Made by a program: the position numbers and the translations under genes. The notes below the pieces were generated by a model that was given only the letters and a program-made list of their open reading frames with translations, did no database searches and was not told the origin of the DNA. From assembly GCF_036370855.1 (NCBI RefSeq), contig NC_088101.1, positions 40,904,544 to 40,968,543 on the forward strand: a stretch of 64,000 bases of DNA, read 5' to 3'. Of this stretch, positions 1,350 to 52,738 are shown one piece after another (position 1 is the first letter of the stretch; every line of letters begins with the position of its first letter). The stretch comes from Dromaius novaehollandiae (lineage: Eukaryota; Chordata; Aves; Casuariiformes; Dromaiidae).

Positions 1350-1389
1350 CACCCGGTCTCACTGGAGTTGTTGGAGGGCGTCCTAGAGT
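1350..1389 (+). CDS. AtuA-like gene, first exon visible in the window
   Basis: A 40-nt exon lies between acceptor TTTCCAG and donor GTAAGT. It encodes PGLTGVVGGRPR with split codons at both ends. The Gly-rich segment corresponds to the end of the main AtuA domain. It is short, and is supported mainly by exact phase joining to the next exon, where the split codon gives Val. Confidence 0.75.
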
Positions 1390-4300
1390 GTAAGTTTACT
1401 TTTGATTGTGAAGTTGTTTTAATGTATGATGATAGTGTTTCCACTGCTCACCACTACAATTAAAAAAAAAAAAAAAAACTAAGAAGTCTTTCAGTTGCAT
1501 ATTATGCTTAATAACTAATAACAAGATGGTAGTGAATGCTACAAGATACACATCCAATAGCAAACTTCTCTGTTGAAGAAGTGACTGGATATGAGTCACT
1601 TAAGTCTGGTCATCTCGCAGCAGTATCTTTGCTTAATGAACTATAGGGAAGGCTTTAGATGCAACTGTGTGGCAGGGCATTAGCCAAGAATATGTTAACA
1701 CGTGAAGGTTTCTGGACCAGATTTCGTTTGAACCTGTTCAGTTTGGAATACAAGCACAGCAAACTTGTGTCTGTACCCACCCATTTCACCTAGAATTGGC
1801 TTTTTTATGAGGTCAGTACACACACAGAATTGTCCTTACAAAATGTCTCTTTTTGCAGTGTTAGCATGAACCCGTTAAATAACTGAGCCAAAATTTTGAG
1901 CATATGAAAAATCCTGTTTTGGTTCAGTATTTTTCTAACATGGCTAAAATCTGCTGGTGATTCGTATGTTCACCTTTCCATATTTACTCATGGGAACATC
2001 TGAAACTTTTTTATCCCTAAGCAAATATGCAAGATATGTCTGTCCTCTGCACGTGGAGATAGGGGAGGACTGCAGATGCACTTCCACTAGCTCTGTGTAA
2101 CTAGCTTAGATGTCAATGTTGAGCTTATCACAGTGCCATAGACTTCAGCTTCCGTGTAAGTGCATCCTTTTCCAAGAAAATACTTTGCTACTCTTCCTCC
2201 TTTCTTTTTCCCCCACCTCCCAAGATTTATTTGATTTTTTTTTTCAAAACTATTACCATGAGATGTGTACTGAAAAGTGAAACTGTTTATCCATTTGATT
2301 GTAACAGAAGAAAGTTACAGGTAGGAATAATGCAATTGATTTGATGTGACAGACAAAAGGAGTAGTAAGGACAGTAGTTTTGACATTAAAATTAAATTCT
2401 TTGCCTTTACTGCTAACATATGACCAGAATAAAAATGATGTATTTAGAAGTGCAGTTTATTTTATATGATACTTTTTTCATTCTGTCATGGATTCAGTCT
2501 TTCACGTGCCATTTTATCTCCAAATACATAAGGCAGTTAAGGGTTAAAAAAAATTAACCGAAAACAAATGCACATTTTGGTTGGCCATTCCTGATGTTTA
2601 CGTAGATACCACTTAAAGTTTCCTCTTTTCTTTTTCTCTATGGTTGTGTGTGTGGTTTGTTTGTTCGTTTTACAGAATCTTGTTTTCTTAATAATAAAGT
2701 TTAAGTAAAGCTTCATGATAATGAAGCTTTAAAGTTGTTTTGAAAACCCCTGCTAACCACAGCTAAATAGCTTTTAAGTTCCCGATTTTTTTTCCAGTGT
2801 CTGAATAATCTAAAGATGCATGAGCTGATGTTTTCATTAATTTCTGACTAAATGGATTTATGCTGGTTGTTTTGTGTGTTTAGGTCTCCAGTTTTGAAAC
2901 CATTCTTCTTCCTTTATCCCAAAATCAATGTCCAGGTAAGAGCTACTCCTTAAAGCCTGTTCTGTTCCCTTTGAAGTCATTTGCAAAAACTATGCTGACT
3001 TTTGGATTTTTCAGTGACTTTTTGAGCCTCAAAATTGCGATGTGTACTAGTAAGTTTCTTTGCAAAGTATTTGCCAGAAACTAATGTTACTTGCACAGAC
3101 TGTTTTACAACAGTTGAATGTGCAAGCTCTGCAGTTTAATTTCTGTGAAGTGTCCGATATGAATTTTAAAATATTTCACGTGAAATGATTACAAAAACTT
3201 AACTTCTGTTTACAGGTTTATAGAATTACCTTCTTGAACTTTCTTGAACTTTTTGCAAAGTGTTTGCAAGGAATGGTAGTGGAAATTATAATACTTTTTA
3301 AATTAAGGTACTTCCTTAAAGAGAAGGCACTTGGTTTTGGGAGGTTTGAATTTTAATCTTGTGAACCGGGGCAAATATTTGAATCTTTTTTTGTTTCTCA
3401 GTCTACTGTTTGTGTATGTTACTGGAAGTAACTATTAAAATCAATGAGTTTCTCTTAATGTGAAACCTGTGTGGATCAGAGAAGAGTTGGATGTTTTCCT
3501 TCCAATTTTCCTGTCTGTAAAAGTGGGAGTAGTGATTTCTGCTCTTATTTATATTGCAAAAAACTATAGAAATACTAATCTCTGTGAGACACTCAAGTAC
3601 TGTTGTGATGAGTACTGTGGAAGAGCCTGTGAATCAGATCGATCTGTGTGGCCCTACTCAGTTCATAACAGTAGTTTCTCTCAGTCTGAGGAGTTAGAGT
3701 TCAGATGACTGGACAGTCCTAGGTGAGAAATGACAATGTAAAATGACACGTTAAGCTAGAGCCCTACTTCTTTTCCGTTTTGGATGTACCTCTGTGCAGA
3801 CTGAAGTCTTCAAGATAAACCTGAGGAAGAAAATAGTTTTATTCAACGTATAAAAAGTTTGGGTTTCTAAGTGTTGATGTTGCTGCTTTTTTGATTGTCA
3901 TCACTTACTGAGTTTATCCTTTGGAGACTGCAGACAAAACCGCAAAACTTCCTTTTCTGTGGCCTTTAATTGACTTTTAGCAAGCAATAAAAGGATATTG
4001 CATACATTTCATGCCAAGTCGTCCTAATAATTATGCAAGAGCTTTGTCACTGATTCGCTGTCAAGAAATGACCAAAGGCCAGAATGTCAGTCTAAGACCA
4101 CAGGTATTGTGACAGATTTCAGCTTAGTGTGGTGAAGGGGAGCCTGAGGAGCAAAGGCAGGAAGTGAAAAGAAAAGAACAAAAAAACCCAAGCTTAGTAA
4201 AACAATTATCAGCAATCAATTTAAGTGTTTTGAGCGCTTCAGAAAGGCCTGTTTCATTTTCTTTTTTTTTTTTTAACGTACATACAGTGCCTAGCACAAG

Positions 4301-7300
4301 GAAGCCCAAATATTACATTTTTCAGTGAGTGATATTCTGCATTAATGGGAAATAATGTAAGATTAAGTTTACAAGAAAGATGCTGTGCAGTTATTAAAAT
4401 CAAGTTTATAATCCATGCATGGTAGAGAAGCATTACAAAAACCTTAATCATCCCTTAAAGAACTTCAAATACTTATCATTCTTATTGCCACTTATATTTT
4501 GCTTTATATAAATGGCTTGTCTTTGCCAAGTTTAATATGAAATTATCATCTTTATGAACATTTAGCCTGTTGCTGTTTAGTTCATCAAATTAAGTGTAAA
4601 TATGTTAATTAGCACTGTGTTCCAGACTTGGTAAAATGCCTATTGAGATTAAATAGTAACTTAATTTAGCAGGGGAATCAAGCAGAGTGTCTCACTTTTT
4701 TCAATATAGAAAATCAAAATCCTTGCTCTAGCTAACTAATCTGATGGATTGATATATTACTAACAAAATTTTGTGTGACCTACTGCTGTTAAAGTTCAGT
4801 AATATTAATGGTCATTTAAAAGTGAGGTCTAAGTGATTCAAGTCTTTGACTGAAAATTTTAAACGTGTTAAGAACAACAGTCTAGCTAGAGATTACAGAG
4901 TAAATAAGGTATGAAATAACTGCCTTTCTAGGTTTGGAGTTCAGTTACAGAAAGTCTAGTTACTGCTAAAATAAACCTGGTTGAGCATTCAAGCTAAAAC
5001 CAAAAATACTGTGTAAGGAGATTTTCAGATATATTAATATTGCCACAGTGGATTCTTTTTTGTGTTTGATGACACCTTTCTGGATGTCAGTTTGGGTTCA
5101 ATATCTAACTTGTGTGTTGTTTTTCACTGCTCTTTTGCAATGGCCTCAGTTTTGTCATAGATCACCAATCATTTTGCATTTGCAAATGTTAGGTATTTTT
5201 CCATGTGTGCTTTTTCATATTCAAAAGGTAACTTAAAACAACTTTCACTGAGGAGAAGAATCCTAGCAAACCTACTTAAGGCAGGAACAGTTTTTTTCAA
5301 ATATTTTATAAATTTTATTTTCCCCATGCACAAGCATTGGAGGCTTTTATCTCTATTACATATTCTCTAAAACGATCTTGTGAAAGATGGCCAAGATGAA
5401 TAAAATTATCTTGCGTTTGTTGAGGACTGAGAATGAATACTGATAACTATGGCAGCTAAATTGGTGTACACTAGTTGGTTATGGCAGCATAACCTGGTCG
5501 TGTGTCTGAGTCCTTAATATTAAAGAGTTCTCCAATGGAAATGAAATGAAGCAGCTAATTTTTCTGAGTGAATGAATCTGAGCAGAGGAATCTTTACATA
5601 TATAAATATTCTGTGTGAATAGCTCAATCAGATAATGATATAATACACTTGAATGCGTAGTTTTCTAGATTTCTTTGTGGGACCAAGGGTTCTTCTTGTA
5701 TTCTGTTGTGCAAGACAATCTGCAGGGCATTTTTGTTTGGTTTGCATTTTAATTGAGATATAAAACCAAAATATCTAGGATTAATACCATTTTCCAGTGC
5801 TCCCCCAGCCACCTACTTTCCTGACTCTTTGAGGTCATACCTGTTTAATGAGGCGGGGGGGAGAAATTTCTCCTTTTAGAAAGGGAAGAAGGATGTGCCA
5901 CATATGTGGAGACCATAGGGTGATTGTTTTCTTTTGGGGAAAAATGCCAAAATATGGTGGCCACTGAAATAAAATATGCAAAGCTTAATTACCCAGAACT
6001 CTGCAAATAGCTTTTTGTACCAGATGGATTTACTCCAGAGCTAAAAGTGAATGGCCAAAACACTAGCAGTGACTATTCTGGCCCGTAATGTATTCATTTT
6101 ATATTTTCCTTATAAAAGAGCATTTGTAACAACAGTCAATTTGCCTTAATACATCTACAGGAAAAGACCGAAACTCAGTATTCACTTACAAAGCAAAGTA
6201 GTACATCATCCAGGGCTGACTTTTGTTTCTGAGGTTGATAGTGACCCTGCATGTGATTGTTTGAAGACATCTAGAAGAACTGATAAGCTGTGTACTTAGC
6301 AAATAGATGCTCTCTTTGTTTTCCACAAGGAATCACCTCTAAAACTTGCTTTCACTGAGTGTATTTCAAGGTGAATTTAGGATCCAAAAAGAAATTTGTC
6401 ATTGATATGGACAGTGACATTAAAAAGAAAAATGGGTTAAATCATCTAGGAGCTAGAAGCTGTCAAGTTTTAGGATTTAGGATTTCAACTTTCAGGGTTT
6501 ACTGATAAGAGTTGTGAGGCAAAATTCTGTATAATACTGCTTCTCTTAAAGAAGAAAATAGGGAGGAGATTTGTCTTCCTTTAAAACGCACCAAACTGGA
6601 TAGAACATTTCTTTGATCTACTCCAACAGTATGTTTGGTTTATTCTGTTAAAAGAACACACAGTTTTTTATGTTTTCCTCCCTATATGAAGATTATTGTT
6701 GTTGTTATTATTACTATTTAAAGGGGGGGGACATTATCCATAAAACTGTTACTGAAAATTTGCCAGATTAATATTTAATTAGAAATATGCTTTATTATAC
6801 ACATGTTGCACTGGATTTCTCTAATTTGACAGTTTGAAAATTGGTATTTTTTCAGATCAACCTATTTTTAAATGGACAGCATGTTGAGACATTTGAGGAA
6901 GATCTCACATTTACATCAGAAGAAGTTTTTTCCTGTGATCCACCTAAGATTAACAGTGAATTGAAAGGTATGTTCATCTTTTATTTGTTAAGGTTATCAC
7001 TTGCTGTTTATGTTGGATTTTATCCATGAATTATATTTTACCTCTTTGTGCTACACGTTATCAGCTCCTTTGCAAAATACTTACACTACTTTTCTTGGAA
7101 AGGAAGGAGTTTAAACCTAGCATTGAACAGTATAAAATGTAATGGAGCTTGTAACAACTATTTAAATAAACGATTGTTCAAAGCAACCAAATCTTAGACA
7201 CAACTGAAAACACAACACTGGTTTGAAACTGAAACGTAACTTAAAAGTATGTTGCAAATTTACTTTGTTAATCCTGGAAGTAAGTGGTCTTACTTTATAT

Positions 7301-10300
7301 TAAAATAATTGTATTCAGAATGGAAAATAGACTTACAAAATACTTAAAATATAGATAATTAAAATTGGGCCATATTCCCGGCCATATTCCATAAATCAGC
7401 CTTCACAAAAGAAACAAAAATGGTACCAATCTGGTACTAGTGACACTTGAAGAAAACATACTACGCTGATGATCCAGCATGACAATTCCTGTGCTGCTGT
7501 TGGACTTTTCTAATCGAATTCTCTGAAGAAGGAAGAAAAGAAACTTAAACGGAGCAAACCAGTGAGCTGAACTGTGCAGATCAAAACATTTACAATAAAA
7601 AAGAAGTGTTCAATCTTAATACTTTGTAGAAGTCAAATACTAGGTTAAGGATTATAGAAAGTACTAGACATCTAAAGCTTTTCATGTCCTTTCTAAAACA
7701 TACTATGTTGCTTAATATATAGCACACTTCATAATTCTCTTTTGGTCAGAACAGAATTTTTAATATCTTACTCCTGCTCACCAGAGAAATGAGAGAATTA
7801 ATTTAAAACTCTGGATAGATATTTTCAAATCTAAATGAGGTGACTTAATTAAAGATTACTTGTTAGAGTTATTTCTAAAAATAATACTTATGCTAAGAGA
7901 ATACTTCAGGTACTTGAGTCAGTGTATGCTTTAAAAGAAAATAATGATGCGAAGGCATTGAAATACTAAGATTTATTCTGGGTTCCGATTGTAGGTGATG
8001 TAGTATTTCTCAAAACTGGTAATAGAGTATTTCTCAAAACCATTTATAGAATAATGTAACTACTAATTCTAAGTTATTGGGGAATATTCTGTATCATGTA
8101 GGGTAATTTTTTAATACACATATGGCTGTGAAGTGTTTGTCGCTCTTTGAAAGTTATTGATATTGAATGCCTAATTGCCATAAGTGATTTCATTTTCCCC
8201 TATCCTTTCAAACATATTTTTAATGTATGATTACTTATATGTCACACAGAAGCTGGTTAAACCCTTAAGTATGTATTTATCTCTTGCTTATGTCTGTTGC
8301 AAATCTAATCTCATAGCAGAATCTATCTGATACCTGGGAGTTCCAGGGAAGGGCATAGAGGATTTAACTAAGACTGAAAAAACAGCAAACTGGACAAGTT
8401 AAGAAATAGGAAGTCATTTTTCTGTTTATTAAAGGGATTAGCAAAGCTCCTAACTTTTTCAAGGTGACTATAATGCTAAATATAGGTGAAACAAAAAGCT
8501 ATTAGACTACTTGTTGCTCTCAAATGCCTTCTTATCATTAGAGGAAACGTTCTGAGATGCCTGACATCCGCGTTTTAAGTACTGCATTCTTCAGGCGTTA
8601 TTCAGGCAAAACTCCACTTTTGCGGGTCAACAGAAATCCTCTGGTTGTTTCCCCTGAGAAAGACCTCTAAACTTTTGCCCTTAGTTGTAAATAGAATTGT
8701 TTTCTGGATGTGATTAAAAGCTTACCTACTTCTGTGGCTTAATGCATGGACACTATGTATGAGAAACAGACAAATGGGTTAGACTGTAAAAGGAGTAACT
8801 TCTGCTGAAACATTTTCTGTCAGCATTTAGTAAGGGGGGAAGTATTTTTTTTTTTTTTTTTATGTTTCATGGTTATCTCAAGTGTGAGGGACTGTTAGTT
8901 GTCTTTGAACTGATAAGAAAAATATGTGAAAATGGATTTCAGAAATGCTGCTAGAAGTGGTTCTGGGAGGGTGGAATTTGAATTCACCGTTTGCCCTAGC
9001 TTCAAAGAGAATTCTTTTGTAGATTTGTTTGAGATGTTTATTAAATGAAAACAGCTTCCTGATAAACAGATGATGAAGGATAAATAATTAGGGTAATAAT
9101 AAATGAGAACACCAGAACACTTTCTAGAGCTGGTTTTGTAAGGGGACACTGTCAAAGACTGTGTAAAATGTTGTTTGATGGAGAAAAGACCCCTACAGCT
9201 TATACAGTTTAAACTTTGTCATATTTCAGCCTTTAAAGAAACACTACATTTTTTCTTGACTCGCGAATAGAACAAAATTATTAAAAAATATATGATTTTT
9301 ATGGTGGTGTCGATTTAGGCAAAATGAGCAATGATCTTCAGCTGGACTGTTTCAGATGCTCTTTTGATGGGAGTGTTGTTTATTCACAAATAATATTTCC
9401 CAATTAAATAAATAGACCCTGCAATATTTTCTGGCAAGTTTTGTGGCCCATTTCTGCTTGCATTTTTCCTGGAAGTGAATGTGGCTAGGCTGCATGATCA
9501 TCAAGCTCAAAATAAATGACAAGCATGTGCCATAGGCTGAATTGTTTTTGAAAATATAAGGAAAAAACCTTTCAGAAGGTTGTCAGCAAGTTTTTGTTAA
9601 AAGTGTTGTTTGGCCATGCTAAGAGGTCTTACAAGTGTTTCATTTGAAAATGGTGCAGTAGTTTCTTCATGTTTTACAGCAGAGATTTTTAAAGTCAGAA
9701 AGAATTTTAGAAGGAATTCCTACAATCTGCAAAAATCTGCTGAAAATGGGCAATCTGCTCAAAATGGGCAAATCTTATTCTGAAAAGTAACACTTCTCAT
9801 GTATTCAGTAAACATTTGCTTGTGTTTCAGAGCTAACACACTCTGAATCATGAGTCTGTACTAAAATGCCTCACCTAAACTGCTGAGAGACCCAGCAAGA
9901 CTTCCCCGAAAGTGCTTTGGGTGGCTGCCACCCACAGGTGTTGCACCAGGACTTGTGACAGAAAGCAGGGAGATTGTTGCTTCTCTGCTCTGAATGTTCC
10001 CCCTACTGGTGTCAAAGTAGCAAAGAGAGAGGAAAAGCTGCTAAGCTGCTAACTTGTGTAGGGAAACATGAGAAAACCACAGGGAGGGGGAACAGGGGAG
10101 GAAGTGGTAACTGAATGGATGAGAAGTCTACCCGTGAGTGTAAATCAGTCTGTTAGAGATGCTGGGACTGAAAAGTAAGTGGGCTAGTGGAGCCCTGGGT
10201 GCCAGGAGGGCTGATAGGGCCGCAGGGAAATAGGAACAGAAACACAACTAGCTGGAAATCACTAGATTCTCTTCGCCCAAAAACTGGAATATAACCTAGG

Positions 10301-13300
10301 TTTTGAATTTCGCTAATATGCTACTACTGGCAAATACGGAAACTCTGCAGCAAAAAGAGCACTTCATCTCTCGCTATGGGGAACAGGAACTAGATCATGA
10401 CAATCTGCTGCTGTTATTAATCTACAGTTGCACAATTTGAAGAGGTCTGTGCTGTGAAACGAAAGCATCAAAACTTGCTTAACCATGTAGATGACAGTAT
10501 AGTTCCAGAAGACTGAATTTTGGCGTTTGGGTCAGAGTGGGTTTACTGTTTGCTTCCACGTAAATATGTGTGTGTAGACACACGCGCGCACACGCACGCA
10601 CACACACGCACGCACACACGCACACACACACACACACACACACTAGGGTAAATAGTAGGAGCTCATGAATCATAGTTTCTTATGTAATTCTACAATATTT
10701 ACAAAGTTAGTCATTTTTTTTAAATCTTGGGATTTTTCTATGGAACCAAGTAAATAATCTTTATAGTAGTGAGTATGAGACACACACATTATCTTCAGAG
10801 GGGAGTTGTGACCGTTTTCTACAGACAGCATCTAGTTATCGGGACGGTAGCAACCACATGTATTTTTCACGAGCACTGGAAGCAGAGAGATGTGTCTTAA
10901 TGGGACAAAAGTTGTCAGCTGGTCAAGAAATGAGAAATGGCTGCTGTGTCTGCTTTAGAAATAATAGACTGCTAACACCAAGATGAATTCAAGGGTGGTG
11001 GAAGAGGTGATGGCTGGCACAGCATTCAGCTGTACAAAGGTAAAAGGGGGTTAAGAAATAGAGCAGGATAAATCAATTTTGTAATTTGGCCCCCAGGCTG
11101 ATTTAACATCTGGTAGGTATATAGGAAGAAAGCTTTGGGAAGTTTCATGGGAGTACTACAAACAATGCAGGAAGTACAGACTGAAAAGATAACTACTTCT
11201 TCAAAGCATACCATTACTTGTTGCTGTTATTAAAATGTACTCATTTTCATATTGTATAGATCTGCCAAGTGGTCCACATACTTACCGCTTAGAAGACCTT
11301 GCCTATACTAGAAGTGGAGACAAAGGCAACTCTGCAAATATAGGTATTCTTCTTTTTCTTTCCTTCTAAAGTGATGGAAGATTTTCAAGTAAGAGCTAGG
11401 CACCAAGTGCTCTTCTTAATTTTTTGGAAATCTCTCACATCACTTGCTTTTTCTTTCCTTTTTTTTTTTTTTTTTTTCCCTTATTGCCTTGATGCTGAAA
11501 GAAAAATTAATCTGTGTAAACCCAGGATCTTACTAATGGAATATTTGTAGTTTTCTGTTCAGCAGCTGTTGAAATCTGAGGTACTAAAAAAATACTTGCA
11601 AATCATGCTACAAATTTGCAAAGTCAAGCTCTTCAAAGTTAAGCAATGTCTTTCTAAGGTTTCCTTTATGTCTTAGTTGCTACTTACTTGTGCATATGTG
11701 TTATCTAATGCAATCTCTTGATTGTCTGATCATGTATAATATATATGAACTTCATAACATATATATGCTAAAACATCAATAGTGCTAGGAAATAAAAAAG
11801 TTTTTCTTACCTGTAAGAGATTATTTTTCGTTACATTGTTAATCCAAATGGTGTATTTCAGTGTGCAGTCTCTTTACATTGATTATGGTGCTTCTTGCAT
11901 TGTTTAATAATTCCTTCTATTCCTTATTCTGCATGCAACAAATGGCTCTCTTACTTGTTGGAAGATGAGAGCGTGTGGTGTTCAAAGCTCATTATGAATT
12001 AAAGGTGCGTTTGGGATTTGATTTGCTAATAGCTGTCATGCTAAAACTGATAAATTTTGTTCATTTATATCTAAGGAATATAGTTTTCTTGCCTTTGTCT
12101 GTGAAACTGGTTTTTGGGTTGAAGAATGAAGGACTTCTGATTATTTTTGTTCAAACTATAGTTGACCTTTATTGCAATGTAGCATTGCCAAATTGTGAAT
12201 GATAGTTAATAGACTTCCTTAGATATAGAGAAATTATTGCTTTATTAAAGAACAACAACAAAACACTTGATCTGTAAGATTAATTTAAACTTTGAAATCC
12301 AAAGATACAAAGATCCTTGCATTGGGAACCAAATTCCTATGAGACGCAAATCTCCTGCTTTCCTGATCCTGCTGTGAAGCCCTGGCTTCAACATGAAGTT
12401 ACATAACGCTTATTAAAGCCTACTTATAGCAAAAACAATGTAACTGGGATTTCTCCCATTTACAACAGAATCCAGTGCAAGAAGTGGGGCAAGAACCAAA
12501 GCTTCAGTTACTGTGCCCCAACTGATCTGATCATGCTTTATTATGGTTAATTGCAATTACTTGTCTAAATCACATGAGCTGTTTAGGGAAGAGAACTGCA
12601 CGTGGATTGTTTGTTGTTGTGACTTTGTTGTTGTTCTTTAGGTATGTCTCAGTGGCAGAGACTGTTTGCAGTCAGAAGAACGTCCAGTATCAGTCTGGGA
12701 GCATTTCTTCATGTCATGTTCTGCATTACCTCTCTGCTGACAGATGGAAAGCTGTCATGCTATTTTATTTGGGCGTTCATTAAAGTGGAGCCATATGTAC
12801 AGTTTCAGATGAGAGGATGTTCTGAAATCAGTTTGTAAAGAAGAAGTACAAATTGGTTTTAATAGCTTATATTCCAACTAACACCTACTGTACCTGACAG
12901 GTGTGATAGCACGGCATCCCCTCTACTATCCATACCTAAAGAAAACTTTAACTGCTCAGGCCTTGGAGAACTACTTCCAACACCTTTTAGAGCGAGAACA
13001 ACCTGAAGAAAAACTAGTAACAAGGTGAGTAGCTTGCTGCTCAGTCCACAGTTGCACATAGATACATGATGGTATCAGAAATCTTTTTCAAGTACGTTAA
13101 CATAAATATTGCAAACCTGCCTGTGTTGTCTTTAATACTTCTTTATGTATCTTCCTTTGCATTTTTAAATAACAACTTGAGCAGTAGTCCTTAAAAAAGA
13201 AAATGGATACATGAACCTGGTTTTCTCTTTTGAAGCTGAACAAAGGCAGTGATTCAGTTTATTGGAGGCATTGTGAGTTCTCCATATCAGCATATTAATG

Positions 13301-16300
13301 TTATGGATACTTTGTTTTGTTCCAGTACAGATATGCCTCCACAAAATAGAAATAACTTTTAAAGTAATTTGAGAAATGGTTCAAAAATGAGGGAAAAATA
13401 CATTTGGAGACTGCAGGAGCTTTAGTAACTGAGGCTTCCCAAGCCTCAGAGCCACTGTAGAGCCACCACAGAACTGGGAGTTCAAAATCCCTAAAATACC
13501 ACCTGAAAGGCATACACAAAGCCGTTGTCAATTGGAGCCCAAAACTGCCTCATCTTCTGTTAGAAACCTGCTTCATCCTGTCACTGTCTCTGCAGAAGGC
13601 TTTAATTTTTATAAAGTTTACTCACTTCAGAGTAGAGAATGTATTCCTTTGACTTCCCCCCCTCAGTCTCACTCTTGCTACATTCACCAAGCCAGAATTT
13701 AAAGGAAAAGAACACATCTAGTTTCCCTTTTCAAAATTTGAGAAGAGAATGTGTGTCCTAAACAGGACACATTTACCTGGTATTCATCTAGAGTATCCTC
13801 TGCCAGTAAACAGCATACATGACATTTTCATCCTCATGACCGATGCTTGGGGTCCTTTTTGGGGACTGGCGAATGTTCTTGTAGTATGGGGTAATAGGGC
13901 TCATCCTCTTAAGGTTTAAAAACCTGTTGACTGTCTTATTGGTATACAATTCTAATGTTGCAACAGGCTATTCAGTCTTCAGTATTTCTAAAACCTGTGT
14001 TGATATAAAGTCAATTATACTGCAAAGATGGAGAGTCCATCAAAATCATTATATGTTTTCATGCTGGTGCTGGATAAACTGTTAAGTGTCTCTTTTGGTT
14101 CTTTAAAGTGTCTAGCTCAGAATGGTGCAACTCCAAGCTCAGAGAGACCTTGGGGCTATTTTAACGCCTATTCTTTCTGAGTTGCAAGTACTGTTCTTTA
14201 TCTCAGTAAACTGCTCAATGCAGATCTTGCCCACTCTTTTGTAAGTGCTAACAAACCTTTGTATCTAATAAATTCTAATATCAAGAAGTGTAATTGAATT
14301 CCTCTGAAACAGAGCAGAGAAGGGCAAAAAGTTAAGTGTCATGCCTTGTAATGATACTTCTAGAAGTTGATTTATTTTAGTTCCTTAATTCTGTTTATGT
14401 TCATAAATAAAAGTTGAAGTTTGCTGTGTCTGGCTAAAGCCAATTTATTTTAATTAATTAGATTATCTGTTCCTGAGTTTTGCTTCTTTTAATGATGTGA
14501 TAATGGAGCTCTGTGAGTGAATTGAAAAACTACTGGGGAAAAGAATAGATCCTTTTGTGGAAATGTTTAGGATTATAAGGATTATGCTCATGTGCTTCAG
14601 ATTGTGCAGTTTCTTTTTAAAATACTTGTTTAATTTTTAGTTTTTATTGTCATGAAAAGAGCTATCTTACTCTTTCACTTCCTTTCATTTCCTTTACCTA
14701 AAATGAGAGTGATTAAAAAAATATATATATATTCTTTCTGGTACTAAAAACATACCAGCAATGGCTCTGCCTCACCACCGACCAGAGGTTAGCAGCCAGT
14801 TGCCTTTCATTCTTCTTCCTTGAGGTTATCAAAATAAGTAAGTATGCCACATGGAGAGAAAAGATGGGGGCTTTTTGATAGATATGACTGAAAACTCAGA
14901 AGCTTCCAGGTTTTCAGGTAACACAGTAATGAAAGATTTTCTTTCAAAAAATCTGTGAAATAGGTGGCGAAAAAAGCAATGTAGAGTACATTCTTCTTGA
15001 GCTAATGGCAGTTTTTCTCTTGTGCGTAGCAGTGATGTGCAAGCCCAACAGGAAAAGTCAGACCAATCTAAGGGAAGGCAAGGAAGAGAGAATTGTATTC
15101 AGGCAGAAACTTGTTCTAAGTTTAAAAAAGGATGCCGGCCATGTTTTTTCTGTGTATACACATACAAAGGTTCTGACTGTTACTGCCATTAAAAATAGCA
15201 TTGATTCTGTAGTGAGATGTAGGGTAGATGTAAGATCATACTGCATGTGAAAGTTTTTTGGTTTGTTTTGTTTTGTTGTTTTTTTAAGGCATTTTGACCT
15301 CCATCTTGTTAATAGTAGGTTATCCGTCTGGTGTTTTGTATACAATGGCTTATAAATTCACATCTGATAATTTTAAAGAAGTGTTAGAAATCAAATATGG
15401 TTGGAAAAGGAAAGATTTTTCTCTCTTTAATTAAAAAAAGCTAAAAATAAAATACTTGGCTAGCTTATTATATACCATTTGCTGTATTGATCAGAAACTT
15501 GTTCATAATCTCTTGTCAGGACTTCAGTTATACCCATCTTCCATCATCATTAATTCTACAGTTATATATTTCCATGTTATAAGCTTAAGAAAACGAATAA
15601 GAAACTTTTTATTTATGGTCATAGGCCACTTACTTGAGAAGGATAGGAAAGTTATTCTGTCTTGCTGGTTTCTTTTTCTGTCTTTGAAATAAAGTTATCT
15701 TCTTTTCCTTCTGAGAGCATTCCACTGCTCAGAAATCTAATATGACAGCTGATTTCTTTTTATGGGATGCTTCTACTAAGAGTTGAAGGACAAGAAAGCA
15801 ATGCTGCTTATGTGGACACAGATACTTCTAAATTGTTTTTTGTACATATATTTATTATGAAAAAAAATAGCCTAATGTACTTCCCTACAGTACATCTCTC
15901 ATGCAAACATCTTTTGTTAGCCTACGGGTTAATTTTCTGCTTTCTTCTGACAGGAAGAATTCCATCTTTCTCTTGATAGAAATGCACTGAACAATTTTAA
16001 CTACGTTGTAATTTCCATGTATTTTTAACAGGAAATTCACAGGGAAACCTGGCTTTTATTGAATACGTACGGACAGCACTTTAAAGGAAGTAGTTAAGCA
16101 GGCACCCCATTGTGCATAAGCATAAAAGTTCAGCTAGAAAAGTGAATTTTACTTGTTTTATTGGTTTCTGTCACAGCCTTAGTATTCTTTGAAGGGTTTT
16201 TATTTGTTTTTTTTTTTGCTTTTTAAAAGCAGCTCTTAAGACTTTTGATTGAATTGTGCAATTAAATTTTATTTTCTTACTTATTTCAGATCTCAGTTAA

Positions 16301-19300
16301 TTACACTTATTTAAATTGTTTAATTATTCTGGGTAAACACATGGCAACATCTTGGATGACACATTGTTGCTGCTTAAGACTATCATGATTGTTATAGTGT
16401 TTTTGGGGGGGGGAGTGTGTGTTTTATGTGCACAAATATTTTTGGACATCCAGTGCTTCAAATAGGCCTTAAAATATTGAAAATACTGCGCTTTGTGTAT
16501 TTTTTGTAATTTTTAGCTAGAATCTGTTACTGTAAATGTTTCCTCAAAGTAATTGAGGTGAATGTGCCATTCTTCAATATTCCAAATTAAGATCTGTTAT
16601 TTATATTACTAACTCCCTCTACCAGAACTGTTGCAGGAGGCGAAATGACATTCTTCCACTCTTTGTCATTTGCATCTGCTTTGATATGCTGCTCTTCAGT
16701 TTCTCTCCTGATTCAAAATGATTGATTTTCCTGTAACTTATTTTGAGAACTGAGGTATTAGCTTCTGGAATACATATTCTGTTAGTCTAATTCTGCTGGA
16801 GAGTTCTGCCAGTTGTGAAATCTTCCATTGTCTGGAAGTATTCACCAGTTTTTCAAGGGAAAATTTACTGTCTAGTGTCTTGATAGACCTCCAGCTCTCA
16901 TGGTGTATGGTTATTAGTAATTGATATCGAGAGTTTTTTGGTTTAAAATTCTGTGGGGTTCTGATTTTGCTTTGTGGTTGATTATGCTATTAAATTAATG
17001 AAATTATGTAGATGACATTAAAATCACTTATTTCTTGATATTCTCATTGTCTGTTAGCACTGTTAGATTAATCAAACTTTCCTACCTTCCCAATACAATT
17101 ACCTTTAAGCATGATGTTATGATAACGTTAATATTTTGTAACGACACTTAAACAACTAAATTTCAAGGATGCTTTATTTTGGCGTAAATGATTTTGAGGA
17201 GAGATGGGCTGTTGTTTTTTCCAGTTAGCTCATTTATGCCTTTGGCAGGAGGGACAAAAAGAAAACCTGTAGGTCTTCTATGTATTTGTTATCTGCTTAT
17301 TCTGTGTCAGTGTTTTGGGGTTTCTGTATGCTTCATTACCTTACGTATGACAACACCTTACAGCAGACAAAATTCCACTCCATTTCAGGCCTGTGTATGA
17401 AACCGTTCTGTTTTGAAGTCATTGAGTCCTACACGGTATCTTTCTGATTCATAGCCTCATTGTAGTTCTTAATGGAAATACCTGGTCTTTGCAGGCTTTC
17501 CTACACTAAGCCTGTTCTTCTGTAAACTTTGCATGAGTTGCTTCTTTCATCCTGTGTAGTATTATGCTACAGAAAACTAGCACTGCTTTGCTTTGGTTGC
17601 AGTTAATGAGGTCAAGGCTTCATTATCATCATCCATATCATGAATGCTATGACAGGGATCCTGTGTGTGTTTTGGTCAGGAAGGATCCTGTTCCCCAAAT
17701 TTATCGAACAACTGTCTCTTTTTCAGTTCAATTTTGATGGTGTTAAGAACTTCAGCATCTATGCTTCAGTTTCTTGAGTTATTGTTCCAGTTTTTTAATT
17801 TTAGCCGGAACTTCTGATACTTTTGTTGGATTAGTAGTAATACTAAGTTCAGGTTCTTTCACATCCAAATCTAGGTATTGAATAATTTAGGATTCCTTAA
17901 TGGACTTCCTATTTGTTTTCCTGCTTTACCTCAATTATAAATGTACAGTGCTGCACCTCAGTGCTTTTGCTGGTCTTAAGCAAAGGTGACAGGAGGAGTT
18001 GAAGGTAGTACTTTGTACAACCCTCTCTTCATGAAGATGAAGCAAACTACAATTTTGATAGGAAAATAACTGTTTGACTAATCCTTTATACTATCTGAAG
18101 GCTCCTAGTAGGGGCCACACTTCAGTAGTGATAACCAAGGTGCTAAGAAGTTTATTGCTGGCCACAAAGCAAAAACAAATAGGAAAAAAAAAAGCAACCA
18201 CCCACCCACCCCTGGGGGGACCTCTCTTTGTTATTGCAGAATATGGTGGAGATGACTACCTATGGGCATAAAACTTCCATCAGAATGTAATGATAAGCTT
18301 GGAGTAGATTCATGTCATCTTTTCAAAAAGCAGCGACCACCAGCTTGTAAAAGGAGGAAGGCTCATTCACAATGGAGTCTACTGAAAACTCCTTCATCCA
18401 CTTAGGATTTGCAAGGCAGTATATCGGAAGTGCCAGATTGCTAACTAGATTCATAAAGATGTATCATAGCATTCTATATTCCAATGTAGAAACATAAGGA
18501 CAAGGGAAGTTTTATAGCTGCTTCCAAAGTATGGTTGACAGAATGCTAACACAGATTTTTTCCCTAATAACAATTAGCAAAGTTAATCCTGAAGTAGAAT
18601 GCAGTAATAAAAGAGCAGGCAGAAAATAAAAAATCATGGCCTAGGAGTCAAGTGCAGAGGGCAAGGCACTCCGTGAATACTGCTTGCAGGAACATATCGA
18701 GAACTAAAGTGTTTGCCAGGCCATATAGCAGAATCATAGCTTGACCACATCCGCTTCCAGTAGTGATTCCAGTCATCTGTCCAAGGTACAAGGGCATAGT
18801 GAGCAGTGAATATCAGCAACAGCTGTAATTTTTGCAATGTCAAAACAGGACTGAAAAGGATAAACCTCAAAGTGACAAAATCAATAATACAAAACTGAAG
18901 GTGAAAGGAGCACTGCAAGAAATTCCAGCTGTTTTAGAGGATGGATTTGAAGAATCTTTCACAAGCAGCTAAGATCAGATAGATGACTAAAGAAAAATAG
19001 TGTTGGAGAAATTGTGATTTAAACTGTAGCAGTCAAATATCTGTAGACATAGCAAGAATTAAACATGCTCTTTTTCAGTTACTCTTCATGTCTTGCTGAT
19101 AAACTAATGAAATTCTTTCCTAAGGAAATAAAGGAAAGCCATCAAGTGCTTAGACAAAATACTGGGAGAAAACAAAAAACATAGAAACACAAGAAGAGTA
19201 CAAGGAGGAAGACAAAGCACTGAAAAACTGGGACAGGCAAATGGAAATATGCTATAGGCCTATTTATTGAATTTGAAACAGTTTTATTAGGAAACCACAG

Positions 19301-21349
19301 AGCCATTTGCCAAACTTCTACAAAAGTTTCCAAATTGGAAATGCACCAATCAAAAGTAAGGATGGAAAAGTGCTTACTGTGGCAGCGGAAGAGAAATAAA
19401 GAAGGTCTGTTACACTAAAATGGAATTGTTTTATCTTAACAAAGTAAAGTGCTTTAATCCAGTAAAGTGTTGAAATGTAGCTTAAATTTTGTTGTTGTTG
19501 TTAGAACCAACTGCAGAGAATTTTATAAAAGTTTGATCGAGTGACTCTCATGATTGTTTCTCAGTAAGAAACAGCATGGTTTTCTGATCAGATGGCAGCT
19601 ATTGTTAGCAAAAGGGAGTTCTGAGAATTAAATGATTGTATTTTTCAGTAAAAGAACTAGAAGATACTAAAATACTGCCGACTGTGATCTTTGTTCATAT
19701 TGGATCTTGAACCTCTTGCCTACTGAGCTTTCTTTATGGTTTTTAACTCTTAAAAAACTTAGAAAATTACCTCAGTTAGAAATTAGCGAGTTTTGCGGTT
19801 GAGTAAGGAGAGGGAGATTACGTTTTGATCCTGCCTTAATACAATTAAGGAGTTTGATTTGGGGCAAGGGGGAGGAACAAGGGGAAAGGCCATGGGTTAA
19901 ATTTCAGTTGAACTGTATGCTTGACTCAGCAGTGGGGGACACCATTACAAGCTTAAAATCTTTGCACGCTGCCTCTGGCTTGGTGTTCTGCACAAGGCTT
20001 TTTTTTTTTTTTTTAATCTACTAAAAAACAACTTGTAAATTTTATTTTTCAGATATGAGTTGCCAGGAATCCACGGATTAAATTTTGTTCTGAAGAATTC
20101 CCTTGGTGGTGGTGGCATAGCATCCCTAAGAAGTGACCCACAGGCATGTATCTAAGCATTGATTTAATGTAGTTATCTTTTATAACTATGTATTGCATGG
20201 TCTCTTTATAACCAGCTTTTCTGCTGGAACTGTAAGCAGTAGTTCTGTATATACACATTATCTACTGCATTGTTTGAAGGTTTAAAAACTATGTAGTGAA
20301 GTACAGAGTTGATTTAGAATATTTATTGGAAAAGGTGTGTGGGGGTGTGTGGGGGGGTATGTGTAAAAGGTAACCGATTAGAAGACTTACGAGTTGGATG
20401 TCCTTTCCAATGTGCTAGCTATGTTTTCAGATGTACCATTTAAATCAGCTTCTCAAAAATGCTGTCAAATTTTGGAAAATAAGAATTTACTAGACAGTTT
20501 TGATTATGTGTTTCCTTGTACATATAGCAGCCACCAACTGCGAACTCCATTTGAATTTACAAGAGTTCTGCAAAGCCACATCAAGCTAAGCCTATGATTA
20601 ATAATAGTTAAATTATAGCTAATTAATATAAATACAAAAGAGGAAAAAAAAGATGCATAGGAGATCTTTTGTGTTGACCACATTATTTGGATCTGAAACT
20701 AAAAGATTTTTGTGAGTGTACGTTTCAGGTATTAAATATTTGAAACATCTCTTAAACCTGAAGATCTCTTAACATGGCAATGCTTTGGCTACAATGAAGT
20801 GTAATTCTGCCACCATAGGCTGAGAAATGCTTTAATTTGCGAATAACCTCAGCATGGTCAACAAGACTATTCACAAAGTAAGATAATGCTCACTGTGACT
20901 CAGATGGTAGAACTGAAACTGAAAAATTATTTTTCATTAGATAAGAAACAGATTGAAGAAACTCTGCTCAATCTAATTAGGATCAAATGCTTGAAAACCC
21001 TAACCGTATAGTTTTCCTTACTTAAGTATTTTGATTTACAAGTGAGAAATCCAAATGAATGGAAAAGGTAAATATTACTTGTGTGAATATACAATCCAAG
21101 GCTTAAGAAAACTTACCCAAAATTTTTATATATGTGTATGTATAAAACATAATGAATGCTTGTTGCTTGTGCTGATTATGGGAAAAAATCCTGTTTAAGA
21201 ATTTAAAAAATGAATTTAAAAAGGTGGTATATTTAGATAGTAAGATTGTGTGTGTGTGTTCGTTTTTCTCACAGGGCAAAGCACTTGGACAGATGTTGTT
21301 GGATTTCCAGATAAAGAATGTTCCTGATTTAAAATCACTGATAGAATAA
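1350..21349 (+). CDS. AtuA-like protein (acyclic terpene utilisation family, DUF1446), 3' part, spliced
   Basis: Seven exons (1350-1389, 2884-2935, 6856-6967, 11260-11343, 12901-13024, 20053-20143, 21275-21349) join in phase and give about 191 C-terminal residues ending in TAA. The product holds the end of the main AtuA domain (GVVGGRPRVSPVLKPFFF) and then the whole C-terminal ferredoxin-fold domain. Its family hallmarks are LAYTRSGDKGNSANIGVIAR, YELPGIHGLNFVLKNSLGGG and the ASLRSDPQGKALGQMLLDF region. In Pseudomonas, atuA belongs to the operon for citronellol and geraniol breakdown, but the biochemical role of AtuA is unsettled. I do not know its role in animals. No signal peptide or membrane segment is visible in this part. 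The N-terminal part (several hundred residues in the family) lies before the window. The exons show no internal stop or frameshift, so the gene looks functional. Family assignment is strong; substrate and pathway are unknown. Confidence 0.85.
1462..1478 (+). repeat. Poly(A) tract
   Basis: A run of about 17 A lies in the intron after the first visible exon of the AtuA-like gene. I could not attach it to a named retroelement. Confidence 0.8.
2884..2935 (+). CDS. AtuA-like gene exon
   Basis: The exon follows a TTTAG acceptor and ends before GTAAGA. It encodes SPVLKPFFFLYPKINVQ after the split Val codon and ends in phase 0. The hydrophobic strand fits the end of the AtuA main domain, before the linker. 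Confidence 0.8.
2936..6855 (+). other. Intron of the AtuA-like gene
   Basis: A 3.9-kb AT-rich intron lies between two phase-0 exon ends. An 82-codon open frame at 3460-3708 shows no family similarity, and no repeat family was recognised. Confidence 0.7.
6856..6967 (+). CDS. AtuA-like gene exon
   Basis: The acceptor is TTTTTTCAG and the donor is GTATGT. The exon encodes 37 residues beginning INLFLNGQHVETF and ending NSELK plus one base of a split codon. This is the acidic linker joining the main domain to the C-terminal domain. Confidence 0.8.
6968..11259 (+). other. Intron of the AtuA-like gene
   Basis: A 4.3-kb AT-rich intron. It contains a poly(T) run near 8846-8860 and an imperfect CA repeat at 10577-10643. 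No other structure was recognised. Confidence 0.7.
10577..10643 (+). repeat. Imperfect (CA)n microsatellite with CG interruptions
   Basis: CA dinucleotides are interrupted by CG steps in the 5' half and become pure CA in the last 25 bases. It lies in an intron of the AtuA-like gene. Confidence 0.95.
11260..11343 (+). CDS. AtuA-like gene exon with the SGDKGNSANIG hallmark
   Basis: The acceptor is TTGTATAG and the donor is GTATTC. The exon encodes DLPSGPHTYRLEDLAYTRSG and continues through DKGNSANI. The motif RSGDKG-x-x-ANIG is the start of the AtuA C-terminal domain and is the strongest family evidence in the gene. Confidence 0.92.
11344..12900 (+). other. Intron of the AtuA-like gene
   Basis: A 1.56-kb intron with a poly(T) tract near 11459-11477. 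Small open frames at 12574-12838 are not needed, because the flanking exons join directly within the ANIGVIAR motif. Confidence 0.75.
12901..13024 (+). CDS. AtuA-like gene exon
   Basis: The acceptor is CCTGACAG and the donor is GTGAGT. The exon encodes GVIARHPLYYPYLKKTLTAQ through EKLVT and ends two bases into a split Arg codon. It continues the ANIGVIAR motif without gap, so no exon is missing between 11343 and 12901. Confidence 0.92.
13025..20052 (+). other. Large intron of the AtuA-like gene
   Basis: A 7.0-kb intron. The flanking exons join through one Arg codon and match the family without gap, so no exon is expected inside. The stretch is AT-rich, with a poly(T) run near 19999-20014 just before the acceptor. 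Confidence 0.75.
20053..20143 (+). CDS. AtuA-like gene exon with a GC splice donor
   Basis: The acceptor is TATTTTTCAG. The exon encodes the split Arg and YELPGIHGLNFVLKNSLGGG, then GIASLRSDPQ. It ends CAG before GCATGT, so the donor is GC, not GT. The GT four bases further on would break the frame with the last exon, while the GC donor preserves the family motif SLRSDPQGKALGQ across the junction. Confidence 0.88.
20144..21274 (+). other. GC-AG intron of the AtuA-like gene
   Basis: The intron begins GCATGT after exon-final CAG and ends CTCACAG. GC-AG introns are a known minority class of U2-type introns. A short TG repeat lies near 21247-21260, just before the acceptor. Confidence 0.8.
21275..21349 (+). 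CDS. AtuA-like gene, last coding exon
   Basis: The acceptor is TTTCTCACAG. The exon encodes GKALGQMLLDFQIKNVPDLK, then SLIE and TAA. The sequence matches the conserved end of the AtuA C-terminal domain (QGKALAQRLLDF type). A poly(A) signal follows 55 bases later. Confidence 0.9.
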   Translation, partial: GKALGQMLLDFQIKNVPDLKSLIE

Positions 21350-21404: not shown

Positions 21405-21410
21405 AATAAA
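21405..21410 (+). terminator. Poly(A) signal of the AtuA-like gene
   Basis: This canonical AATAAA lies 55 bases after the stop codon, giving a very short 3' UTR. No closer signal was seen. Confidence 0.65.
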
Positions 21411-26736: not shown

Positions 26737-27304
26737 TGAATGTCCGCCCCATCCATCATCCCGCAGCCCCGGGGAGGCCGGAATTTGCTCGGCTACTGAA
26801 ACTTATTAGCCTCAGACGGGGAGGCTTTGTTGCCCTGACAGAGCTGCTCTTTTGTGGGCTTTGTTGCCAGGATTTATGCATTTACATAATGGATTAGCAT
26901 GAGACAAAACGGGAAGGAACGGCTCTCCGCGTTTTCCCACTCCTTCTTGGCCGGCGGATTTTTAGGACAAGTTAATTCGCAGGCGGCGCCCGCCGCTCTC
27001 CCGTGCTCTCCTCAACGCGCCCTTCCTTCGCGAAAGATACCGACCCGCTACGAGGCGCCGGCCTTGCCCCGGGCAGCGCCCTCGCTCCCCTCCGCGCCGT
27101 GCCGCCGGGGAGCCCGAGCACAGGGGCAGAAGTAAGCGGCAGCCGCGCCGCCGCCGCCGCCTCGCTCCCCGCGCAGGTGAGGCGCCGGGCCGGGCCGCGC
27201 TGCGCCGCAGCCGCGGGGCCGCCGCGCCCCGCTGAGGGCCGGGCCGGGGCGGAGCGGGCGCTCCCCGCTCCCCGCACGCCGCTCGCCCAGGGGGCCGGCC
27301 GGGC

Positions 27305-27340
27305 GCCCGCCCCGCCCCGCCCGGTCGCCTAGAAAAGCGG
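27305..27340 (+). promoter_or_regulatory. LRAT: Possible LRAT core promoter (GC boxes and degenerate TATA-like element)
   Basis: GC boxes at about 27309-27322 precede CTAGAAAAG at 27329-27337, about 50 bases upstream of the ATG. A TATA-type core element has been described for mammalian LRAT. This one is degenerate, so the call is tentative. Confidence 0.3.
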
Positions 27341-27387
27341 GGCCGGGGCGCGGGGGTGCGCGGCGGTCCGAGCGGCGCCCCCGCACC

Positions 27388-27927
27388 ATGAAGAACCCGG
27401 TGCCGCAGGCGGCCTCGCTGCTGCTCGAGAAGCTGCTGCTGCTCGTCCACGTCCGGCCCCTGCCCGCCGGCGCCGACGGGGAGCCGCCGCCCGCCGCCGG
27501 CTACTACGACAGCAGCTGCTTCAAGCGCGGCGACCTGCTGGAGGTGCCGCGCACCCTCTTCGTCCACTTCGGCATCTACCTGGGCGACAACCGCGTCGCC
27601 CACCTGATGCCCGACATCCTGCCCGCCTTCACCGACGACCGCCGCCAGATCCAGCGAGTGGTGACCAACAAGCGGCTCATCCTGGGCGTCATCGCCAAGG
27701 TGGCCAGCATCCGCGTGGACACCGTGGAGGACTTCGCCTACGGCGGCAGCATCCTGGTGAACCACATGGACCGGCTCTTCAAGGACCAGGTGCTGGGCAG
27801 CGAGGAGGCGGCGCGCCGCGCGGAGAAGCTGGTGGGCGCCACGGCCTACAGCCTGCTCTGGAACAACTGCGAGCACTTCGTCACCTACTGCCGCTACGGC
27901 GCCGCGGTCAGCTTCCAGACCGACAAG
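27388..27927 (+). CDS. LRAT: LRAT coding exon 1 (residues 1-180)
   Basis: The exon starts [20 protein letters not shown] and ends SFQTDK before GTACTG. It carries all three catalytic residues and is extremely G+C-rich, unlike the second exon, because it lies in the CpG island. Confidence 0.97.
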
Positions 27928-28829
27928 GTACTGCCCGCGGCCGGCGGGGGCCGGCCATCGGTTTGGGGCGGCGCGCGGGGGTGTGTGTGTGGGGGGGAGG
28001 GGGCTGCGCCATGCGGCGCGGAGCTGCCCGCGCGGCCCCGGCGGCGCCTGGCGGGGCGAGCGCGCGGCCGCCCAACGGCCCAACGGCCGCGCCAACGGCC
28101 GCCGCTGGGTGTCCCGAGGCGGCGCTGCACTTTGCCGCGGCGGGCGGCTCGCTCCCCGAGGGCGGGTCGGTGGGTGCCGAGGCCGGGCTGCCCCGCGGGC
28201 CGCCGGCCCCCCAGGCCAGGTGGGCTGCGGTGTCCCCGCGGTGCCTCCCGCCGACCCGGCGTCAGACCAAGCGGCCCTTTACAGGGGCTGCAGGGCACTA
28301 AAACAAGGGCCGGTCTACTTAGAAATGACGGTAACTCGGTCCCTGTGGACTCGAATTGGCAAGAAAAGTGAAGCTGAATTCGTAAGGCAACAGTCCGCTC
28401 GCTCTTAAAGTACCCTTGGGCTATGCAGTCCCCAGCACTGTGCTGTTGGAGCAGGAATAAAGCTCGTGTCATGAGCGGGTGCTGGACTGAATGCAAAGGG
28501 CTGTATACCTATTTCCACTTTGTACTGTGCTCAAGGTAGCCCATGGGAGGGCTGTAGTAGTAACAGGCAGCCTCTAATAGAGAGGGGCTGTCCGAAGCTG
28601 GCTGGCTTTTTAAAGCTTTCTTTTTCTTTTTTTTTTAAGCTTTTCTCTTTAACCTTGACCTTTTGCTCTTTTGCAGTTCTGTGAAACTGTGAAGATGATT
28701 ATTCGGGACCAGAGGAGTGTTCTTGCTTCAGTGCTCGTGGGATTAGCATCAATAGTCTGCCTAGGTTTGGCGCCCTCCACCACACTCCCCACTATTTTTA
28801 TTCCCTTCTTTCTGTGGATGGCTGGCTAA
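27388..28829 (+). CDS. LRAT: Lecithin retinol acyltransferase (LRAT), complete, two coding exons
   Basis: Exons 27388-27927 and 28677-28829 join in phase 0 and encode 230 residues, the length of human LRAT. The enzyme moves the sn-1 acyl chain of phosphatidylcholine to all-trans retinol, making retinyl esters in the ER membrane for vitamin A storage and for the visual cycle. It belongs to the NlpC/P60-like LRAT family. Catalytic His60 ([17 protein letters not shown]), His72 and the nucleophile Cys161 ([13 protein letters not shown]) are all at the expected positions. An N-terminal hydrophobic stretch (about 9-22) and a C-terminal membrane anchor (about 197-228, ending FFLWMAG) are present. 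The ATG follows GCACC and lies inside the CpG island. The gene shows no defect. LRAT is known to be induced by retinoic acid. RBM46 lies downstream on the same strand, as in human. Confidence 0.98.
27928..28676 (+). other. LRAT: LRAT intron
   Basis: A 749-nt GT-AG intron. It is CpG-rich in its 5' half, with a short TG/G-run near 27978-28000. It ends in a long pyrimidine tract and TTTTGCAG. Confidence 0.93.
28677..28829 (+). CDS. LRAT: LRAT coding exon 2 (residues 181-230)
   Basis: The exon encodes [20 protein letters not shown], then a hydrophobic membrane-anchor segment ending FFLWMAG and TAA. The C-terminal helix anchors LRAT in the ER. Confidence 0.97.
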
Positions 28830-51287: not shown

Positions 51288-52738
51288 GTAAGCATAAATG
51301 CTTTTAATTAGTTCTTAAGAACTGAAGCTAGAAAAGTTACTTTAAAACTATGCTTTATGTGTCCATCTGATGTCCTGTGTACCTTGCATACCTAGCTCAG
51401 TATGGAACATCAGGGTGAGAGCACTGAAGGAACACAGTGTCAGCATTTATACTGTTCCAATGTGGGGGCATTTTTGCTTTCATTTATCTACCTTAATATT
51501 TATAAGGAAGAACTAGATGGCATGTTAAGTGACAGAGGTGGGTATAAGGTCATCTACATGATGCTGAATATTAATTTGAAAAGCTGTGTATATTCTTGAT
51601 TTAATGCTTGAGAGGTATACCAGAAGCGGCTGGTGCATATTCAGATGAATAAATAGTTGTGGTAAACTGGTTTGATTTTTCTTTATAGACATTCTCAAGG
51701 TTATAGCAGAATTTCATTAGAGGGCTCTACTGAAGGTAACTTTGGGTAAAGACCGTTGTCATTTAGTATGTGTGGTTGTTATTTATGTTAAAGAGAAAAT
51801 AAGCAGGAGAAAGTAGGACAGTTATTCTTAATTACTTTGAAGTCTAACATCTTCATTTATATATATTCTACTTCTTAAAATTAATATGTGACTGCTAGAA
51901 AAGGGACGATTTGATTATTATAATAAAGTCTGTTCTTCTCATAACTGAGGATGCACATCTCTGCAGTTCTGACAGTACGTGTTATCCCTGTTGCTTTGTA
52001 AGTTGATATACATAAATAATATAACATGTAACACTTTTCCCATCTGGTTACTGTCTGGTATTTTCCACTTCTGTAATACTGTAGTAGAAGGCAGAACTGA
52101 CTTCTAATGCCAGGTAGTTTCATTAGTAAATGTAGTCATCATCTGATAAAATCCATCCTAAAGGAAACTAGATTCTTGGTACTCAGATTTGAAGGCTGTT
52201 GTGGAACCACACCATAATGGTTTGAAACCTCCTTAGGTTTCCAGACAGAGTTTTGGATAATTTATTCGATTTGTTCTTTTGAATAACTTTCCTTCTGCTT
52301 AATTAGCTCTCCCTTTTTGGCCCTTAGGTCATAGTATATTCGAAAAAGAGATAGAACTGATCTTTATAATTTTGCAAGTATTGGAAACCGTCACTTCATT
52401 TTTCTGATCTGCTGAGTAGCGTTCTTGTGCATCTGTTGAATGGTTTCTTTGAGCATGACAAGGACTGTACATGATGTATTCTGAAGTCTTACCAGTGTTT
52501 TGCATAGCAACATTAATATTGCTCTATCATTACAGTTCCAGTGAGTCCTAGAGTCAAAGCAGTTCTTTTCTGTGTATATTGCAGTAGAAATGGTGGGCTG
52601 CTCAGCTATTACAAGCTAGTTTCTTGTCTCATTGTCTGTAGCAGTTTTTTGGTGGTGGTGGTGGTTTTTTTTTTCGTTTGGGGGTTTTTTTTTTAGTTTT
52701 TATGACAATTCAGAAGAGGAACAATGCCAAAGTTGTTT

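Follow-up and report, generated by a model that had tools for sequence, protein, structure and literature searches.

We examined 64,000 nucleotides of the emu, Dromaius novaehollandiae (assembly GCF_036370855.1, contig NC_088101.1, positions 40,904,544 to 40,968,543; hereafter the window, with negative positions upstream of its first letter), and found that they contain the 3' part of a real, intact, full-length gene of the acyclic terpene utilisation (AtuA) family, of the one-chain type. Profile searches of the entire genome (1.47 Gb assembly, 271 contigs; match counts are lower bounds) with PF07287 (AtuA) gave four matches of exon size, each on the window's own contig and upstream of it, and the search with PF23544 (AtuA_ferredoxin) gave one match, inside the window; this gene was the only copy detected. 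Because the PF07287 matches lay upstream, the flanks were included in the analysis (80 kb upstream and 20 kb downstream), and it became clear that the initial annotation, which had placed the gene at 1350..21349, described the tail of a larger one. Exons were located by tblastn with the AtuA proteins of Nitratireductor, Sphingobium and Achromobacter, whose matches extend from -46330 to 21337; exon edges and the remaining exons were set by phase and splice signals.

The gene consists of 20 exons on the + strand, running over about 68 kb from -46438 (contig position 40858105) to 21349. Its start lies some 46 kb before the window, with exons 1-13 outside and exons 14-20 inside. The spliced coding sequence of 1,935 bases, stop included, encodes 644 residues with 0 internal stops. 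AG acceptors were present in all 19 introns and GT donors in 18; intron 19 (from 20144) is the only one with a GC donor, directly after 20143. These splice sites bear out the earlier observation that seven exons join in exact phase at 1350..21349. Its count of seven introns gives way to 19, with 6 entirely within the window, and its 191-residue protein to an in-window part of 192 residues, split first codon included, of the 644. The AtuA motifs noted before were recovered by a six-frame scan at 11310 and 20060. Exon 1 lies inside a CpG island, with GCCACC directly before the ATG. The features are as follows:

-46438..-46273, + strand: exon 1 (splice model)
-45914..-45814, + strand: exon 2 (splice model)
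-45279..-45210, + strand: exon 3 (splice model)
-44284..-44154, + strand: exon 4 (splice model)
-41539..-41451, + strand: exon 5 (splice model)
-38963..-38864, + strand: exon 6 (splice model)
-38026..-37983, + strand: exon 7, 44 nt (phase and splice-site scan)
-36781..-36704, + strand: exon 8 (splice model)
-26030..-25834, + strand: exon 9 (splice model)
-23494..-23430, + strand: exon 10, 65 nt (phase and splice-site scan)
-20434..-20328, + strand: exon 11 (splice model)
-17191..-17083, + strand: exon 12 (splice model)
-10259..-10160, + strand: exon 13 (splice model)
1350..1389, + strand: exon 14, APGLTGVVGGRPRV (splice model; weak by tblastn alone, E 7.7; aligns with bacterial MAPGITG..GGRPK)
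2884..2935, + strand: exon 15, SPVLKPFFFLYPKINVQ (splice model; aligns with bacterial RPKxxPVVKLFSFL; no tblastn match of its own)
6856..6967, + strand: exon 16, 112 nt, variable linker between PF07287 and PF23544 (splice scan and model; start aligns with bacterial VPVEIEFNGE)
11260..11343, + strand: exon 17, LAYTRSGDKGNSANIG, start of the AtuA ferredoxin-like domain (six-frame scan, tblastn, splice model, Pfam)
12901..13024, + strand: exon 18, beginning GVIARHPLYYPYLKK (tblastn, splice model, Pfam)
20053..20143, + strand: exon 19, RYELPGIHGLNFVLKNSLGGGGIASLRSDPQ, followed by the GC donor (six-frame scan, PF23544 genome match, tblastn, splice model)
21275..21349, + strand: exon 20, beginning GKALGQMLLDFQIK, last coding exon with stop (splice model; weak by tblastn alone, E 2.7)
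21405..21410, + strand: AATAAA, possible polyadenylation signal, beginning 56 bases past the last stop base (first of 10 AATAAA/ATTAAA up to 26000)

Exon 16 is the least similar exon, and both it and exon 15 owe their positions to reading phase, splice sites and alignment. The top-scored candidate for exon 16 (5161-5227) was rejected, its residues being unlike the bacterial linker. A shorter form, whose acceptor lies 24 bases downstream and which ranked second as against third for the form kept, was also set aside, since the extra residues of the longer form align with bacterial sequence. Rfam and tRNA scans of the window gave no matches.

The full protein matched PF07287 with 450 bits (1.1e-134, profile positions 1-434 of 437, cut-off 22.8 bits) and PF23544 with 121.4 bits (3e-35, positions 2-113 of 113, cut-off 27 bits). 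The in-window part matched PF23544 at 3.7e-36, far beyond chance, in agreement with the AtuA C-terminal domain proposed initially; the PF07287 match expected at the same time belongs to the full protein, the in-window part matching PF23544 only. NCBIfam assigned no family to the full protein, and none of the open-licence paper titles listed by the searches described an animal AtuA. The initial annotation had described the family as best known from terpene-degrading bacteria; members are on record elsewhere too, as one paper gives Arabidopsis At1g01770 as a DUF1446/IPR010839 member and another reports two putative AtuA proteins from the fungus Phacidium. Given the plant and fungal members, the gene seems to be a vertebrate representative, so far undescribed, of an enzyme family already known, in place of the undescribed system suggested at first, and an old eukaryotic presence of the family with losses is plausible.

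To place the protein within the family, we used the best 80 loci from 237 confirmed relatives in prokaryote genomes; two of 84 loci (L018 and L027) were left out, as the pattern used yielded no open reading frame. Identity to the closest bacterial one-chain AtuA proteins is 45-52% over about 600 residues, and to the distant one-chain relatives L108, L109 and L100 it is 42, 34 and 31%. A bacterial alignment was built from 32 of the 80 loci. The vertebrate protein agrees with it in 102 of the 107 columns that are invariant and in 59 of the 66 that are nearly so; the changes at invariant columns (A61 to T, A150 to V, F244 to L, I269 to V and S437 to F) are mostly mild. When bacterial rows were omitted one by one, each retained at least 107 of 110 invariant columns. 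In a tree of 51 of 121 sequences, with similar ones removed and the vertebrate protein as the sole eukaryote, it falls within a 29-row one-chain clade (support 99/95), at an unresolved fork with no particular bacterial neighbour.

The one-chain AtuA proteins of Alkanindiges (L021) and Alcanivorax (L020), from operons of the acyclic terpene utilisation type, share with the vertebrate protein, the one in which domains were scanned, both Pfam domains and their order, at about 51-52% identity. Compared with these, the vertebrate gene adds 19 introns and its protein a 39-residue N-terminus. This extension contains 7 Arg and 1 acidic residue, with a hydrophobic moment of up to 0.50; it resembles a mitochondrial presequence, and the protein is probably imported into mitochondria.

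The surroundings also differ, as the bacterial one-chain genes lie in operons with carboxylase, hydratase and dehydrogenase genes and the vertebrate gene lies between fibrinogen genes and LRAT. Exons of fibrinogen beta, alpha and gamma were found upstream; the best Protein Data Bank (PDB) matches of the beta and gamma exons are 1ei3 and 1m1j, both chicken fibrinogen, which makes a bird the probable source. For the alpha exon, 1fzd was the sole match within the cut-off. Downstream follows LRAT, a retinol acyltransferase gene (PF04970, 7.6e-39), with its coding exon at 27181-28368 on the + strand, an open frame about 6 kb past the AtuA stop. Both LRAT and AtuA would act on terpenoid compounds, and their proximity may be due to chance. 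Exons with RRM and DND1_DSRM domains are located further downstream at 48772-51304, in what is presumably RBM46, and a GC-rich stretch at 42-44 kb may be the promoter of this RBM46-like gene. The same gene order is found on human 4q31-q32, where no AtuA gene is known between FGG and LRAT. No paper on FGG and LRAT synteny was found in the open-licence literature.

Bacterial gene context points to the kind of substrate. A carboxylase subunit, either carboxyltransferase (CT) or biotin carboxylase, was present in the examined DNA of 70 of the 80 bacterial AtuA loci, and in 59 a CT subunit is encoded no more than 3 kb from AtuA and on its strand. The CT of Alkanindiges is closest to the geranyl-CoA carboxylase (GCC) beta subunit at 6e-249, versus 3.5e-145 for the beta subunit of methylcrotonyl-CoA carboxylase (MCC). 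According to PMC4673880, a Phe in MCC excludes geranyl-CoA and GCC has Gly at the same position; among known structures, this position reads F in 3u9r (MCC) and 9tps, and G in 5ikl (GCC). A CT gene is present in 62 of the 80 loci, and in the 55 CT stretches near AtuA recovered by pattern the gate residue is Gly in 53, Ala in 2 and Phe in none. Because the gate is Gly or Ala and never Phe, the bacterial AtuA substrates are probably larger than methylcrotonyl-CoA. The missing Phe gate could also help to re-annotate "MCC-like" genes.

Structural relatives were sought as well. A PDB sequence search with the spliced vertebrate protein found no match up to E 1; only a bacterial AtuA profile reached 9ERQ and 9EVF (E 8.8e-7), named citramalate lyase subunit A (CmlA), one entry being a complex with ADP and pyruvate. 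In the predicted model of a bacterial orthologue the N-terminal part has the CmlA fold, aligned over model residues 1-453. CmlA differs in being a 456-residue chain without the AtuA C-terminal domain and, judging by name and ligand, in acting on a free acid. Apart from 9EVF, three Foldseek matches had E <=0.001; all were aspartokinase chains with TM-scores of at most 0.21 and were disregarded. The CmlA structure was not described in any of the open-licence paper titles listed by the searches. PF07287 is present in 56 of 299 sampled genomes of Pseudomonadota, the phylum of Alkanindiges. In eight Pseudomonadota genomes (G022, G030, G034, G057, G065, G137, G143 and G169) PF07287 matched only weakly (best E 8.9e-14 to 4.8e-10), in two pieces within open frames of 454-477 residues; these may be CmlA-like relatives.

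We hold it to be probable, with reservations, that the gene encodes a mitochondrial one-chain AtuA acting as a C-C lyase on 3-hydroxy-3-alkylglutaryl-CoA, so that an isoprenoid acid loses its beta-methyl branch. Gene structure, domain content, conservation, synteny, the predicted fold of the bacterial orthologue and bacterial gene context are shown directly; mitochondrial location, reaction, substrate and pathway in this animal are inferred. In the emu, a 3-methyl-enoyl-CoA larger than methylcrotonyl-CoA would undergo gamma-carboxylation and hydration to 3-hydroxy-3-alkylglutaryl-CoA, which as a tertiary alcohol is not open to oxidation by the ordinary beta-oxidation route. AtuA would then cleave off the free carboxymethyl arm, giving a two-carbon acid and a 3-oxoacyl-CoA; the latter would pass to thiolase, with loss of the branch as the net effect. 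The two-carbon product would be acetate, or acetyl phosphate if the enzyme uses a nucleotide, a possibility hinted at by the ADP in the solved relative. Two known systems are similar by description only. According to a review (PMC12016498), ThnQ/ThnS, AtuA-like lyases of anaerobic naphthalene degradation, likewise break a C-C bond at a tertiary carbon bearing a hydroxyl group, with a 3-oxoacyl-CoA as product; they differ in being two gene products of anaerobic bacteria with a cyclic substrate. The lyase for 3-hydroxy-3-methylglutaryl-CoA (HMG-CoA; HMGCL, LiuE) cleaves 3-hydroxy-3-alkylglutaryl-CoA as well, and its products, as given in that review, are acetyl-CoA and a 3-oxo acid (acetoacetate), in contrast to the proposed acetate unit and 3-oxoacyl-CoA. 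A more extended version, in which vertebrates such as the emu have a complete mitochondrial route of gamma-carboxylation, hydration and AtuA cleavage that was lost in other lineages, and in which AtuA couples the cleavage to ATP and releases acetyl phosphate, is speculative and in our view rather improbable.

Several observations weigh against this proposal of an isoprenoid-directed lyase. The lyase name of AtuA is a speculation in its source, and the review (PMC12016498) cites the ThnQ/ThnS result from unpublished work. The structural model is that of the bacterial orthologue and not of the vertebrate protein, and identity to CmlA in the structure alignments is just 16-17%. Ten of the 80 loci have no carboxylase in the examined DNA; three of these belong to Neomarinimicrobiota (L074, L079 and L097) and contain mutase-like genes and weak matches to 3-hydroxyacyl-CoA dehydrogenase (24-25% identity), which suggests another supply route for the AtuA substrate there. 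Overall, MCC beta (3.2e-156) is a closer match to the Nevskia CT than GCC beta is (5.3e-127), and many of the gate stretches come from Acinetobacter and its relatives and hence are not independent. By the rule in PMC4673880, the Phe gate would be expected in vertebrate MCC, and the AtuA enzyme would then lack an obvious supplier. Finally, the vertebrate branch of 0.91 is the longest of the 29-row clade, so the substrate may have shifted.

A smaller substrate would avoid the problem of supply: HMG-CoA or another methyl-branched acyl-CoA could be formed by MCC and a hydratase, and AtuA would then offer leucine breakdown a second path beside HMG-CoA lyase, one that releases acetate. Both MCC and AUH are expected in vertebrates, no new carboxylase would be needed, and the type of reaction would be unchanged. 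We nevertheless find this unlikely, though worth keeping in mind, given the open pockets of the bacterial CTs (53 Gly, 2 Ala and 0 Phe of 55) and the fact that HMG-CoA lyase already fills the role. The ADP and pyruvate entry of citramalate lyase subunit A, the sole solved relative found by sequence, would fit a nucleotide-using enzyme of C5 dicarboxylic acid metabolism (itaconate, mesaconate, citramalate), as would the DUF1446 gene downstream of methylaspartate ammonia-lyase in enterobacteria, reported in PMC4682846. The vertebrate protein, however, groups with one-chain AtuA at 45-52% identity, many of these in carboxylase loci, and CmlA was reached only by profile (E 8.8e-7) and fold, the single-sequence search having missed it; such a role is improbable.

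Less probable again is a structural, regulatory or moonlighting role without this catalysis; it would agree with the lack of any described animal function among the open-licence paper titles listed by the searches, but 102 of 107 invariant residues are retained and the five changes are mostly mild. The explanation that we credit least, to the point of near dismissal, is that of bacterial contamination, a recent horizontal transfer or a decaying pseudogene, to which the best-known bacterial occurrence of the family and the single copy found in the genome searches could lend themselves. The 19 introns with proper splice sites over 68 kb and no internal stop, the flanking fibrinogen, LRAT and RRM genes, and a long separate branch (0.91) inside the 29-row clade beside no particular bacterium all speak against it. 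The locus is part of a vertebrate block and contamination is therefore excluded, so that the initial view of a spliced, intact vertebrate nuclear gene and not a bacterial contaminant is upheld.

The interval between the fibrinogen cluster and LRAT is a simple map address at which the presence or loss of AtuA can be read in any vertebrate genome. Owing to the structural link with citramalate lyase, the unsettled role of AtuA could be tested on three substrates with a single purified protein. If a lyase on 3-hydroxy-3-alkylglutaryl-CoA is indeed encoded here, vertebrate metabolism would include an isoprenoid-breakdown enzyme described in bacteria, and if acetyl phosphate is released, a metabolite that has hardly been considered in animals.
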